From contig NZ_CP123620.1 of assembly GCF_029873215.1 (NCBI RefSeq), forward strand, positions 2,604,001 to 2,668,000: a stretch of DNA of 64,000 nucleotides. The letters are read 5' to 3'. The notes beneath the pieces are model-generated. The model was not told where the DNA came from. It searched no databases and worked only from the letters and a program-made list of their open reading frames with translations. This document shows positions 48,934 through 57,703 of the stretch, in pieces. Position numbers and translations under genes: made by a program. Position 1 is the first letter of the stretch; every line of letters starts with the position of its first letter. The stretch is from Nocardioides sp. BP30. GTDB taxonomy: Bacteria; Actinomycetota; Actinomycetes; Propionibacteriales; Nocardioidaceae.

Positions 48934-50601
48934 TCAGAGACGTCCCTCGGACTCGAGGAACTCGTGGACGTGGCGAATGGCCACGGAGCCCTCGCCGACG
49001 GCGGATGCGACGCGCTTGACCGAGCCGCTCCGGACGTCGCCGACGGCGAAGACGCCCCGGTGGCTCGTCTCGAACAACCCCTCGCGGCCGTCGGCGGGCG
49101 GTCCGGTGAGCACATACCCCTTCGAGTCGAGCATGATCTGTCCCTGCAGCCAGCTGGTGTGCGGGGCCGCCCCGATCAGGACGAACAGGGCTCTGGTCGC
49201 CACGCGATGCTTCTCGTCGGTCTGAAGGTCGTGCAGCAGCACTTCTTCGAGCCCTTCGTCTCCGATGAGCTCGGCCACCTCGCTGGTGCGCCAGATCGTG
49301 ATGCGCGGCGATTGCTCGACGCGGTCGGCGAGGTAGCGCGACATGTCTCGTCGGAGGTCCTCGTGGCGGATGACGAGGTTGACCGCCGGCGACCGCCGGG
49401 CGAGGAAGCAGGCGGCCTGGCCCGCGGAGTTGCCGCCGCCCACGACGGTGACCGGGTCCCCCCGGCACAGACGGGCCTCGAACTCCGTCGCGGCGTAGTA
49501 GACGCTGCTGCCCTCCAGGCGCTGCATCCCCGGGACGTCCAGGCGTCGGTAGCGCACGCCGGTGGCGACGAGCACCGCATGCGCGGTCAGATCCTCCCCC
49601 TCCGCGAGCCCCACCAGGTGGTAGCCGTCGGCCTGGGTCAGGGAGGTCGCCTCGCCGGGGATGTTGAAGACGGCGCCGAACTTGCGGGCCTGCACCAGCG
49701 CGCGATCGGCCAGCTCCGCCCCGGAGATGCCGGCCGGGAATCCCAGGTAGTTCTCGATCTGGGACGAGGTGGCCGCCTGCCCGCCGGTGGCGAACGCGTC
49801 CACGACGACCGTCGAGAGCCCTTCCGATGCGGCGTAGACGGCCGCTGCCAGGCCGCCCGGGCCCGCGCCCACCACGACAAGGTCGTACGCCGCGCGGCTC
49901 GGCGCCGCTCGAAGGCCGAGGAGCTCGGCCAGCGCCGTGGTGCTGGGGTTGCGCAGGACGGTCTGTCCCTTCCAGATCACCACGGGTGTCTGGTCAGGCG
50001 GGATGTCGAACGCCCGCAGGGTGGCCTCGGCGTCGGGATCCTCCTCGACGTCCTCCCAGCGGCATGGAATGCGATTGCGGCTCGCGAAGTCCCTCAGTCG
50101 ACGGGTGTCGGCCGAGAAGCGAGACCCGATGATCCGGAGGCCGGCGCCGAGGTCGGCATGGATGGTGCGTCGGAGGATGAAGGCGCGCAGGATCAGGTCT
50201 CCGAGCGCCTGATCCTGGCTGACGGCCTGCTTGAGCTGGTCGTACCGCACCTCCAGGACGTCCACGTCGGTCTGGGCGACCGCCGTGACGTAGACCGCCT
50301 GGCCGGTCAGGATCGACAGATCACCGACGAAGCGACCCCGCCCGTGGACGGCGATCACGCGCGACCCTTGCTCGGGGCTCTCCTCCTGGAGGACGCGGAC
50401 CTTGCCGTCCAGGACGACGAACAGACCGCAGTCGCGGTCCCCCGCGCAGAAGAGCCTGGTGCCCTTGGGCAGCGACTTCCGCTCGCCGAATCGCGAGAGC
50501 AGCATGACCTGATCGGCGCTGAGTCGGGGGTAGGCGCCGGTGGTGTCGGGGGTCTCGGGAAGGTCCGGGAGGTCGGCGTCAGACGAACTGCTCGTCGACA
50601 T
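48934..50601 (-). CDS. Thioredoxin-reductase-like flavoprotein with N-terminal cyclic-nucleotide-binding fold, no CxxC
   Basis: 555 residues. Residues 25-145 form a cNMP-binding beta-roll, but the cassette reads GDLSILTGQAVYVTAVA and lacks the Arg that holds cAMP. Residues 160-230 are glutaredoxin-like with a single Cys (RIPCRWED). From about 240 it is a TrxR fold: VVVGAGPGGLAAAVYAA, GGQAATSSQIENY, VVGGGNSAGQAA, FAVGDVRSG. The redox-active CATC of real TrxR is replaced by YYAATEFE, so it cannot pass electrons in the usual way. It is last in the chaperone operon, overlapping the zinc-finger gene by 23 bases. Confidence 0.85.
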   Translation of the reverse strand: MSTSSSSDADLPDLPETPDTTGAYPRLSADQVMLLSRFGERKSLPKGTRLFCAGDRDCGLFVVLDGKVRVLQEESPEQGSRVIAVHGRGRFVGDLSILTGQAVYVTAVAQTDVDVLEVRYDQLKQAVSQDQALGDLILRAFILRRTIHADLGAGLRIIGSRFSADTRRLRDFASRNRIPCRWEDVEEDPDAEATLRAFDIPPDQTPVVIWKGQTVLRNPSTTALAELLGLRAAPSRAAYDLVVVGAGPGGLAAAVYAASEGLSTVVVDAFATGGQAATSSQIENYLGFPAGISGAELADRALVQARKFGAVFNIPGEATSLTQADGYHLVGLAEGEDLTAHAVLVATGVRYRRLDVPGMQRLEGSSVYYAATEFEARLCRGDPVTVVGGGNSAGQAACFLARRSPAVNLVIRHEDLRRDMSRYLADRVEQSPRITIWRTSEVAELIGDEGLEEVLLHDLQTDEKHRVATRALFVLIGAAPHTSWLQGQIMLDSKGYVLTGPPADGREGLFETSHRGVFAVGDVRSGSVKRVASAVGEGSVAIRHVHEFLESEGRL

Positions 50602-50857
50602 AGCACCACCTCCAGTCCTCTCCCGGCTCGATCGAGCGCACGATGACGTGACCCGTGGTGGCGGCGTGAGCGCGCGCGTGTCGCATCGGTGAGGAGTCGC
50701 AGCAGCCGACCTGCCCACAGGTCAGACACTGACGCAGGTGCACCCACGTGGTGGAGAGCCGCAGGCATTCCGGGCACACGCGCCGGGTGGGCGGTGGAAC
50801 GGGCATGATGATGCCGAGGTGCGGATCCTCCCCAACGCGCGTCGGGTGGGCGGTCAT
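50579..50857 (-). CDS. UBP-type zinc-finger protein
   Basis: 92 residues, almost entirely a ZnF-UBP domain: CPECLRLSTTWVHLRQCLTC, GQVGCCDSS, then RHARAHAATTGH, giving the expected Cys/His set. In eukaryotes this fold binds the C-terminal GG of ubiquitin; in bacteria its role is unclear. Pup in this organism ends GGQ, or GGE after deamidation, so a Pup link is tempting but unproven. The gene overlaps thioredoxin (ATGA) upstream and the flavoprotein downstream. Confidence 0.85.
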   Translation of the reverse strand: MTAHPTRVGEDPHLGIIMPVPPPTRRVCPECLRLSTTWVHLRQCLTCGQVGCCDSSPMRHARAHAATTGHVIVRSIEPGEDWRWCYVDEQFV

Positions 50858-55781: not shown

Positions 55782-55786
55782 GGCCG

Positions 55787-57703
55787 TCAGTGGGAGGTGA
55801 ACTCGGCGTCGATGACGTCGTCGTCACCGCTGTCCGAAGCCTCGTCGGAGGCGCTCGCCGGCCCTGTCGCCGGCCCTGTCGACGGCCCTGTCGACGGCCC
55901 GGCACCGCCACGACCTGAAGCGTTCAGCGCCTGGTTCATCTGGTGGAGCTCTCCGGTCAGGGCGCGGAGGCGGTCCACCGGCTCATCGCCCTCGACAGCC
56001 CGGCGGGCCTCCTCGACCAGCATCTCGGCACGCGCCCGGTCGTGCTCGGCAACGGACGCGCCAGCCTCTTCGAGGGTCTTGCGCACCTGGTAGGCGACCG
56101 AGTCGAGCTCGTTGCGGGCATCGACCCGCTCGCGTAGGGCGGCGTCCTCACCCCGGTGGGTCTCGGCGTCCCTGATCATCCGGTCCACCTCCTCCTGACT
56201 GAGCGTGGAGGTCTCGCTGATGGTCACCTGCTGCTCGGCACCGGTGTCCTTGTCGCGGGCCGAGACGTGCAGGATGCCGTTGGCGTCGATGTCGAAGGTC
56301 ACCTCGATCTGCGGCACCCCGCGCGGCGCCGGGCGGATGTTCTCCAGCCGGAACCTGGCCAGCACGCGGTTGTCCGCTGCTCGTTCCCGCTCGCCCTGCA
56401 GTACGACGACGTCGACGGCGGACTGATTGTCCTCCGCGGTGCTGAAGATCTCGGTCCGTCGAGCCGGGATGGTGGTGTTGCGCTCGATGACCTTGGTCAT
56501 CACGCCACCCATCGTCTCCAGACCCAGCGACAGGGGCGCTACGTCGAGCAGCAGCACGTCCTTGACGTCGCCCTTGATGATCGCCGCCTGCACGGCCGCG
56601 CCGATGGCCACGACCTCGTCCGGGTTGACGGTCATGTTGGGGTCCTTGCCACCGGTCAGGCGGCGTACCAGTGCCTGCACCGCCGGGATCCGGGTGGACC
56701 CGCCCACCAGGATGACCTCGTCGATGTCGTCTGCGGTGACCTTGGCGTCGGCCATCGCCTGCTTGACCGGACCGAGGCAGCGCTCGACGAGGTCGGCCGT
56801 GAGCTGCTCGAAGGTGGACCTCATCAGGTTGACGTTGAGGTGCTTGGGTCCGGAGGCGTCAGCGGTGACGAACGGGAGGTTGACAGCCGTCTGGGTCACC
56901 GCCGACAGCTCGACCTTGGCCTTCTCCGCAGCCTCGAACAGACGTTGCAGGGCCTGGGAGTCGTCACGGAGGTCGATGCCGTTGGACTTCTTGAACTCGT
57001 CGGCCAGGTAGTCGACGATCCGTCGATCGAAGTCGTCGCCGCCGAGATGCGTGTCCCCGGCCGTCGATCGAACCTCGACCACGCCGTCTCCGACGGAGAG
57101 GATGCTGACGTCGAACGTGCCACCGCCGAGATCGAAGACGAGCACCGTCTCGTTCTCGAGCTTGTCCATCCCGTACGCGAGGGCAGCGGCCGTCGGCTCG
57201 TTGATGATCCGGAGGACCTCGAGTCCGGCGATCTTGCCAGCGTCCTTCGTGGCTTGGCGCTGGGCATCGTTGAAATGCGCCGGGACGGTGATGACCGCCT
57301 CGGTGACCCGCTCGCCGAGGAACTTCCCGGCGTCCTCGACCAGCTTGCGCAGCACGAGGGCCGAGATCTCCTCGGGTGCGTAGAGCTTGCCGTTGACCTG
57401 GAAGCGCGCCGCACCGTCGGGGCCGGCGACGACGTCGAAGGATGCGGCGGTCATCTCGCTGCTGACCTCGTCGTACCGGTGCCCGATGAAGCGCTTCGCC
57501 GAGTAGATCGTGCCCTTCGGATTCAGGATCGCCTGCCGCCGGGCCATCTGCCCGACCAGACGCTCGCCGTTCTCCAGGAAGGCCACCACCGACGGTGTCG
57601 TCCTGTTGCCCTCTGCGTTGGGGATGACCTGCGGCTGCCCACCTTCGGTGGCCGCGATCACCGAGTTCGTCGTTCCCAGGTCGATGCCGACTGCCCTAGC
57701 CAT
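55787..57703 (-). CDS. dnaK: Molecular chaperone DnaK (Hsp70)
   Basis: 638 residues. The ATPase domain begins GIDLGTTNSVIAATEGG and contains VFDLGGGTFDVS and VGGSTRIPAV; the substrate-binding domain has VLLLDVAPLSLGLETMGG. The linker and lid are normal, but the tail carries STGPSTGPATGPAS coded by 12-bp tandem repeats instead of the usual EEVD-like end. ATG 57703 has a GGAG site. It heads the eight-gene chaperone-redox operon. No HspR (HAIR) or HrcA (CIRCE) operator is seen upstream, so control differs from the main dnaK operon of actinobacteria. Confidence 0.95.
   Translation of the reverse strand: MARAVGIDLGTTNSVIAATEGGQPQVIPNAEGNRTTPSVVAFLENGERLVGQMARRQAILNPKGTIYSAKRFIGHRYDEVSSEMTAASFDVVAGPDGAARFQVNGKLYAPEEISALVLRKLVEDAGKFLGERVTEAVITVPAHFNDAQRQATKDAGKIAGLEVLRIINEPTAAALAYGMDKLENETVLVFDLGGGTFDVSILSVGDGVVEVRSTAGDTHLGGDDFDRRIVDYLADEFKKSNGIDLRDDSQALQRLFEAAEKAKVELSAVTQTAVNLPFVTADASGPKHLNVNLMRSTFEQLTADLVERCLGPVKQAMADAKVTADDIDEVILVGGSTRIPAVQALVRRLTGGKDPNMTVNPDEVVAIGAAVQAAIIKGDVKDVLLLDVAPLSLGLETMGGVMTKVIERNTTIPARRTEIFSTAEDNQSAVDVVVLQGERERAADNRVLARFRLENIRPAPRGVPQIEVTFDIDANGILHVSARDKDTGAEQQVTISETSTLSQEEVDRMIRDAETHRGEDAALRERVDARNELDSVAYQVRKTLEEAGASVAEHDRARAEMLVEEARRAVEGDEPVDRLRALTGELHQMNQALNASGRGGAGPSTGPSTGPATGPASASDEASDSGDDDVIDAEFTSH
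55861..55896. repeat. 12-bp tandem repeats in the dnaK tail
   Basis: Three units of GCCCTGTCGACG (one variant) encode the Gly-Pro-Ser/Ala-Thr repeats of the DnaK C-terminus, near the stop codon. Confidence 0.75.

Follow-up and report, generated by a model that had tools for sequence, protein, structure and literature searches.

Transferable disaggregases are described, in the available parts of the sources, from the ClpG/ClpK islands of Proteobacteria (PMC8290217) and, as ClpL, from Listeria (PMC11006417). For the transmissible locus of stress tolerance (tLST), the available account lists as cargo sHsp20, ClpK/ClpG, FtsH, HdeD, thioredoxin, KefB, an HtpX-like protease, and DegP. In Streptomyces coelicolor, according to the accessible portion of the report, dnaK and clpB are under HspR, with the operator TTGAGYN7ACTCAA (PMC2687793). 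Here, an eight-gene operon of Nocardioides sp. BP30 is compared with these systems. It lies in a stretch of 64,000 nucleotides (NZ_CP123620.1, positions 2,604,001 to 2,668,000; the window), and no description of it was found in the open-licence PMC literature. The operon is likely an accessory, horizontally transferable stress module, in which a second disaggregation machine (DnaK2-GrpE2-CbpA-CbpM-like-ClpB2) is joined to a thiol/redox tail consisting of a thioredoxin, a UBP-type zinc finger protein, and a flavoprotein. The operon and its relatives at other loci are referred to as the island.

Like tLST, the island appears as a mobile proteostasis island that combines a disaggregase with a thioredoxin and has relatives on plasmids. 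The likeness extends in part to other cargo: related actinobacterial loci add Hsp20, FtsH, M48 and trypsin-like proteases, an HdeD-like gene (recognized by eye), or PsiE. Unlike tLST, the operon uses a DnaK-ClpB pair rather than ClpG/ClpK, is actinobacterial, and includes the UBP finger and a CRP-TrxR-like flavoprotein. The assignment of ClpB2 to ClpK or ClpG was rejected (scores of 794.6 and 786.2, respectively, versus cutoffs of 1900). Because the disaggregase differs and fails both tests, the operon would work like tLST but is not one.

The operon and the main heat shock set

All eight genes lie tightly packed on the minus strand, from 57703 to 48934 by the ends of the open reading frames (Table 1), and carry the expected Pfam domains, as a reading of the window from its sequence alone had proposed. 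From dnaK to the flavoprotein gene, the junctions computed from these ends are +5, -1, -4, -10, -4, -4, and -23, that is, a 5-base gap at dnaK/grpE followed by overlaps at grpE/cbpA, cbpA/cbpM, cbpM/clpB, clpB/trx, trx/UBP, and UBP/flavoprotein, all within the range given by that reading (a 5-base gap or an overlap of 1 to 23 bases). This packing is that of one operon, presumably read as a single transcript, and it is more than chance because the same order recurs in other genomes and on plasmids. Of the proposed gene labels, cbpM is weak: the MerR_2 protein scored below the cutoffs for both CbpM (30.5 versus 138; NF007617) and HspR (27.4 versus 105), so that by this test the operon has no hspR; its plasmid relatives are named CbpM in the record annotation. 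ClpB2 exceeds the TIGR03346 cutoff (1323.5 versus 1232.1), as does the UBP finger that of PF02148 (48.2 versus 22.7). The thioredoxin scored 124.8 against a TrxC cutoff of 125 bits (NF008229) and passed the general thioredoxin cutoff, with its Zn-ribbon and WCGPC motifs in place.

The genome is one contig of 4.28 Mb, and the window copy of the operon is chromosomal. That the operon is accessory, standing beside a main HspR-type set, is well supported by sequence comparison because dnaK and clpB occur elsewhere in the genome as well: a locus near C1:70.7-72.5 kb, read from its sequence as dnaK-grpE-dnaJ-hspR, and clpB1 at C1:61.98-64.56 kb. Both have HspR-type sites, of which the window has none beyond chance expectation. 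Sites resembling the HspR-associated inverted repeat (HAIR) occur with 1 mismatch before dnaK1 and with 2 mismatches before clpB1; the main-locus stretch holds 3 HAIR-like matches in all (one with 3 mismatches) versus 0.23 expected. The scan of the window for HAIR returned a single 3-mismatch match, inside clpB, with 0.79 expected by chance, and the scan for the controlling inverted repeat of chaperone expression (CIRCE) returned none. Control of the operon by HAIR or CIRCE was therefore rejected. Both the absence of visible HAIR and CIRCE elements and the accessory character of the operon had been put forward from the window alone, with a search for a second dnaK-grpE-dnaJ-hspR locus as the check; each of these proposals is borne out. 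That the operon is simply the main heat shock dnaK operon, as the full chaperone set that it encodes might suggest, is extremely improbable and is refuted for this genome by the second locus with its hspR and HAIR-like sites. A further Clp ATPase gene (47-52% match) is located at C1:769 kb.

Compared with the main actinobacterial HspR regulon (dnaK-grpE-dnaJ-hspR and clpB), which this genome also contains, the operon offers the same chaperone functions but has no HAIR and no hspR, CbpA in place of DnaJ, a ClpB of another clade, linked redox genes, and a different upstream element.

Table 1 Positions in the window of the operon genes, the upstream elements, and the adjoining genes
Feature	Position	Strand	Remarks
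Flavoprotein gene	48934..50601	-	CRP-like cNMP (cyclic nucleotide monophosphate)-fold domain, putative thioredoxin-like middle domain, TrxR-like FAD/NADPH domain without CxxC; Cys379 invariant
UBP-type zinc finger gene	50579..50857	-	92 aa; PF02148
trx	50854..51306	-	Trx2-type thioredoxin; N-terminal Zn-ribbon and WCGPC
clpB2	51303..53939	-	878 aa; ClpB equivalog
cbpM-like MerR_2 protein gene	53930..54250	-	Pfam; CbpM/HspR membership not established
cbpA-type J protein gene	54247..55239	-	J domain and DnaJ_C; zinc finger domain not found (Pfam)
grpE2	55239..55781	-	Pfam PF01025
dnaK2	55787..57703	-	638 aa
AGCATGG	57737..57743	-	Possible -10 region, about 40 bp before dnaK2
Element CACCCGTTCACGGGATGC	57765..57782	-	61 bp before dnaK2 start codon
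Small ABM-like protein gene	57798..58097	-	Own element copy; PF03992 21.3 bits, below cutoff of 23.1
Second element copy CACCCATGTGCGGGATGC	58231..58248	-	Before ABM-like gene
MEDS-LuxR regulator gene	58285..59169	-	Candidate regulator of the element

Descent, conservation, and plasmid relatives

ClpB2 and ClpB1 of the same genome share 56% identity. Within the phylum sample (396 genomes including BP30 itself, the two top candidates of each being scored), ClpBs at 76-79% identity to ClpB2 occur in five other genomes, and the next match listed is at 60%. In a tree of 102 ClpB sequences, built without those that had internal stops or matched over a short length, all 35 island ClpBs fall into one clade (support of 1.0), and ClpB1 groups with the core actinobacterial ClpBs (Actinomadura, Nocardia). 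Nearest to the island clade are sequences from a Deltaproteobacteria bin, Desulfuromonad relatives, and a planctomycete bin, followed by others; its exact sister is not settled because the node supports range from 0.39 to 0.79. DnaK2 and DnaK1 share 58% identity over 544 residues. DnaK2 contains a 22-residue insert that is absent from DnaK1, present in all 33 aligned island DnaKs (window included) and in the Acidobacteriota DnaK of L037, and absent from the other aligned actinobacterial DnaKs (L092 and L096). An insert of this sort is typical of Gram-negative Hsp70. By these comparisons, the disaggregation machine is separately descended from the main set.

When 117 genomes of the order were searched with the flavoprotein, 13 full-length loci at identities of at least 52% were obtained in 12 other genomes, and at all 13 the flavoprotein is accompanied by dnaK-grpE-cbpA-cbpM-clpB-trx as far as the stretches reach (that of L132 ends at a contig edge within clpB). 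The UBP gene lies between trx and the flavoprotein gene in seven of these loci, straight after the flavoprotein gene in L128, and displaced in L123, L124, L125, and L127; it was not found at L126. Among 214 other genomes of the same genus, 15 carry the flavoprotein at an E value of 1e-120 or better, and 13 of these 15 loci retain the gene order as far as the contigs reach. Several island genes are split between frames in L239 (aligned as read), L246, and L247, the flavoprotein gene itself being split in the last two.

Ten loci picked by ClpB were also examined because choosing by the flavoprotein could inflate conservation (L024, L025, L026, L028, L032, and L140-L144; L027 ends after clpB and was left out). 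The chaperone core was seen in all ten as far as each stretch reaches. The tail genes of these loci, together with two loci of the same genus, show that the redox tail is not universal: of the 10 loci, 8 show trx (L024 and L026 do not), 5 show UBP, 5 show the flavoprotein gene, which in L140 is encoded on the opposite strand, and 4 show the complete tail; in L236 only a 28-residue trx piece stands between clpB and UBP, and L247 consists of UBP and the flavoprotein gene, the preceding 4 kb of contig containing neither trx nor clpB. A UBP-like match in L026 lacks most Zn ligands and was not counted as a gene, although it is among the 38 UBP rows aligned below. In L037, from an Acidobacteriota bin, flavoprotein, UBP, and ABM-like genes occur together a few kilobases from dnaK and clpB. 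On this gene-order evidence, the gene set is conserved as a unit, although patchily, in scattered actinobacteria of the soil, with the chaperone core better conserved than the redox tail.

Relatives of the operon were also sought in 72,556 plasmid records. Among the matches listed, ClpB was found in 19 records at 72.6-79.1% identity, followed by one at 61.2% (21 records in the 60-80% band); DnaK in 21 records at 74-80%, followed by 62%; and the flavoprotein in 14 records at 50-53%, followed by 45%. Plasmids of Rhodococcus, Nocardia, Gordonia, Streptomyces, and Arthrobacter are among those with relatives. Nine of the 19 listed ClpB records were opened; their gene table is incomplete, so that an unlisted gene is not thereby proven absent. 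The five-gene core is present in all nine. Four carry all eight genes (Rhodococcus DK176, R. pyridinivorans, Streptomyces angustmyceticus, and Nocardia farcinica SZ 1509), the Streptomyces NBC_01001 plasmid has all except an annotated UBP gene, and the incomplete table lists no tail genes for the remaining four. A gene annotated as a general stress protein immediately precedes dnaK in seven of the nine records, and transposase, integrase, recombinase, or TniQ genes occur within the 20-kb stretch in eight. MOB-suite classified one plasmid as conjugative, four as mobilizable, and four as nonmobilizable. On the Nocardia farcinica HB204 plasmid (L268), an exact HspR-type operator was observed between Hsp20 genes and a STAS gene, not directly before dnaK. 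Horizontal spread of the operon is well supported by these plasmid relatives. Recurrence of the full set, which the sequence-only reading had named as a check, is thus seen in other genomes and on plasmids, with the reservation that the redox tail is not universal.

What follows clpB bears on whether trx, UBP, and the flavoprotein are passive passengers, that is, general stress cargo swapped at one slot behind a functional unit of five disaggregase genes. M48 and trypsin-like proteases stand in place of the redox tail on the HB204 plasmid, a trypsin-like protease (with FtsH some kilobases on) on an Arthrobacter plasmid; insertion sequences follow clpB on a Gordonia plasmid, and only 4 of the 10 ClpB-picked loci have the whole tail. 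Conversely, the reading frames overlap across the tail, and the element found before dnaK2 also precedes displaced UBP genes (see below). That the tail genes are such passengers is conceivable but rather doubtful.

The redox tail

The WCxPC motif of the thioredoxin is kept in 35 of 35 aligned sequences (one of them with CRPC), and its Zn-ribbon cysteines, like the Cys/His ligands of the UBP finger across 38 aligned rows, are conserved in at least 97%. By eye, the UBP finger has no arginine at the place equivalent to that of the arginine needed in USP5 for binding a ubiquitin-like C terminus. The window also contains a Pup gene (23889-24086, minus strand), whose product ends in Gly-Gly-Gln; Pup is a possible candidate ligand class for the finger. 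Elsewhere in the genome, L136 (C1:3602000-3616000) holds a second CxxC-free TrxR-like flavoprotein with a receiver-like N terminus (by eye), divergent beside another UBP gene, and at L137 (C1:816151) a third UBP finger is fused to the end of an apparent cation/proton antiporter (by eye). As a general rule, the pairing of flavoprotein and UBP is weak: a UBP gene was detected by tblastn in the approximately 11-kb stretch of 2 of 20 nonisland flavoprotein homologs, in addition to the paralog at L136.

The AlphaFold model of the flavoprotein (mean pLDDT of 80.9) matches the folds of TrxR and AhpF, the latter over 430-457 alignment columns with a TM-score by query of 0.45-0.47. The middle domain, for which Pfam alone gave nothing, is predicted to be thioredoxin-like from inspection of its sequence and from the AhpF fold match. 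From AhpF, which has CxxC pairs of its own, the flavoprotein differs in lacking such pairs and in carrying a CRP-like domain. The FAD and NADPH motifs are retained. Counting against a redox role of the usual kind, the TrxR active site is without CxxC in all of the 32 aligned island copies and in 21 further ones (L131 has the single CxxC that was seen, at another place). Because the housekeeping TrxB of the genome has CATC at the place where the flavoproteins have no CxxC, the flavoprotein is not a standard thioredoxin reductase; its score is also below the TrxR cutoff (220 versus 343). Cys379, conversely, is invariant in 32 of 32 aligned island flavoproteins, a count without proteins under 480 aa and without L140, and in 41 of 41 of another alignment. 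The CRP-like domain has no arginine at positions 101-105, the expected place of the cNMP phosphate-binding arginine.

The closest described protein of this architecture is ATII-TrxR, a CRP-TrxR protein of 552 aa that is reported to reduce thioredoxin and 5,5'-dithiobis-(2-nitrobenzoic acid) (DTNB) with NADPH; the available text describes it as metagenomic and near Cupriavidus proteins, names cysteines 206, 223, and 376, and mentions no chaperone link (PMC6544261). The operon flavoprotein shares the CRP and TrxR-like architecture and, by spacing, the conserved cysteine, and differs from ATII-TrxR in its chaperone setting and in lacking the extra cysteines. The comparison was made by the spacing of the cysteines named for ATII-TrxR: this spacing recurs in three cysteines of two Cupriavidus relatives of the flavoprotein, which also lack CxxC, and the third of the three aligns with Cys379.

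Two readings of the flavoprotein follow. In one, it is a functional NADPH-thioredoxin reductase that serves the operon thioredoxin through Cys379 and the flavin, which would make the operon a self-contained reduce-and-refold machine. The two genes are encoded together with only the UBP gene between them, and the invariant cysteine, the Cupriavidus spacing, and the activity reported for ATII-TrxR in the available text (PMC6544261) all point this way. The missing active-site CxxC, the TrxR score, the lack of counterparts to the other ATII-TrxR cysteines in the island proteins compared, and an ordinary TrxB-TrxA pair at C1:365.7 kb point the other way; we regard this reading as a serious possibility, although one that falls somewhat short of being probable. 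In the other, the flavoprotein is a pseudoenzyme, a flavin/NADPH sensor that would change shape with the redox state and control the UBP protein or the chaperones. Such a protein has a precedent in Irc15p, which, in the accessible part of the report, lacks the cysteine pair of lipoamide dehydrogenase, passes electrons to artificial acceptors but not to disulfides, and changes shape with oxidant (PMC6296175). FAD and NADPH motifs kept while CxxC is gone, a sensor-like N-terminal domain without arginine at 101-105, and AhpF among the fold matches fit a sensor; the reductase activity reported for ATII-TrxR (PMC6544261) and the one invariant cysteine, which suggests chemistry, do not, and a pure sensor seems on the whole doubtful. 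A dedicated NADPH-flavoprotein-thioredoxin route is possible because a CRP-TrxR protein of apparently the same family is reported to reduce thioredoxin. That refolding may be coupled to thiol or NADPH state, as was first suggested from the sequence of the window, is a plausible hypothesis.

The upstream element, a candidate regulator, and the proposed working

The earlier account of the operon is extended by plasmid carriage, by a dedicated upstream element, and by a LuxR gene, none of which it contained. The pattern CACCCN5CGGGATGC has exact matches in the genome only at the two sites of Table 1, before dnaK2 and before the ABM-like gene. In the same genus, where 12 loci could be tested (the window and those 11 of the 15 others whose stretches include sequence upstream of dnaK2), all 12 have an element that deviates from YACCCGNNYNCGGGATG at no more than one position, 60-68 bp before the dnaK2 start, and AGCATGG or GCATGGC follows at 39-47 bp before dnaK2 in nine. 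The observed match was reached by 0 of 300 shuffles in eleven loci and by 1 of 300 in one, which is a guide rather than a test because the pattern was drawn from the same sequences. The ABM-like gene adjoins the module in L234 and L243 as well, again with an element copy.

In seven genomes of another family, the variant CACNNGNNCNGGGGATGTG, derived from their dnaK2 upstream regions without use of the displaced UBP sites, has 10 exact matches, none of them outside the island; seven lie before dnaK2, one per genome, and three before displaced UBP genes. All four displaced UBP genes are preceded by the variant (exactly in L123, L125, and L127 and with one mismatch in L124), and no second site with at most one mismatch was found in L128 or L129, where UBP is still beside operon genes. 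Allowing one mismatch, CACNNGNNCNGGGGATGTG gave 45 matches in the seven genomes versus 10 for a reversed control; 33 of the 35 one-mismatch matches lie outside the island. At some loci, weaker copies with two mismatches (one in L126) stand before Hsp20 and YflT-type genes. A genome-wide scan for further sites gave two other exact and seven one-mismatch matches, the reversed control pattern giving three.

The candidate regulator is the MEDS-LuxR gene near the element. In all seven genomes of the other family, the gene that it matches best genome-wide is the LuxR gene adjoining the dnaK2 operon (51-58% identity); only the helix-turn-helix region (residues 217-289) is matched, and the MEDS part has no match in those genomes. 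Of the 11 other same-genus loci with sequence upstream, 10 have LuxR relatives in the stretch. The position of the element upstream of the possible -10 region suggests activation rather than repression.

A number of loci speak against general control by the element and LuxR. In L246 the element is present but no LuxR gene was seen close to the operon, and the f4 extensions L248-L252 likewise showed none. No copy of the element was detected ahead of dnaK in L025, L032, L037, L130, L131, and L140-L144 or at the operon of the nine plasmid loci; the plasmid scans yielded just one 1-mismatch match away from the operon in L276, with the narrow pattern, and one in L277, with the wide pattern. The wide pattern was derived from f4, L026, and L028, so that its matches there are circular; it also matches upstream of the Hsp20 and dnaK genes in L025, which was not used in deriving it. 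Because the element is absent from many island loci of other families and from the nine plasmid operons scanned, control by the element and LuxR is regarded as lineage specific.

Outside the module, the flanking genes of the window were not found in the same-genus loci within some 2 to 6 kb on either side, except for 38-39% matches to two ABC-transporter genes (L244) and a 44% match to one ATPase gene (L233). The region 59334-62821 contains a small gene with an ATPase domain, a gene for a GAF histidine kinase, and two ANTAR-domain genes, of which one scored below the Pfam cutoff and the other also has GAF; apart from that single 44% ATPase match, these are not common to the same-genus island loci.

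In the working that we propose, the LuxR protein would bind the element and increase transcription in response to some stress that is not simply heat sensed by HspR. ClpB2 would then pull proteins out of aggregates, DnaK2-CbpA-GrpE2 would refold the proteins so freed, and the thioredoxin would reduce oxidized client thiols. The flavoprotein would feed or gate the thioredoxin branch from NADPH, whether by using its one invariant cysteine to reduce thioredoxin or by acting as a redox sensor through the flavin, and the UBP finger is probably an adaptor of this branch.

There is about as much reason to accept as to doubt that the operon is the actinobacterial counterpart of the proteobacterial stress tolerance island: a plasmid-spread redox-proteostasis operon that joins a DnaK-ClpB machine to a thioredoxin of its own and to a flavoprotein free of CxxC and that, in some lineages, would have a dedicated LuxR-type regulator whose site follows the genes, UBP included, even when they move. 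In the sources cited above, the transferable disaggregases are ClpG/ClpK and ClpL, whereas here a complete DnaK-ClpB machine is found on actinobacterial plasmids, partly with redox partners. The operon makes it testable whether a second disaggregase coexists with the first because its clients are thiol oxidized and what roles bacterial UBP zinc fingers and CxxC-free TrxR-like flavoproteins may have; furthermore, the element and its candidate LuxR regulator would offer a direct handle on the inducing stress.

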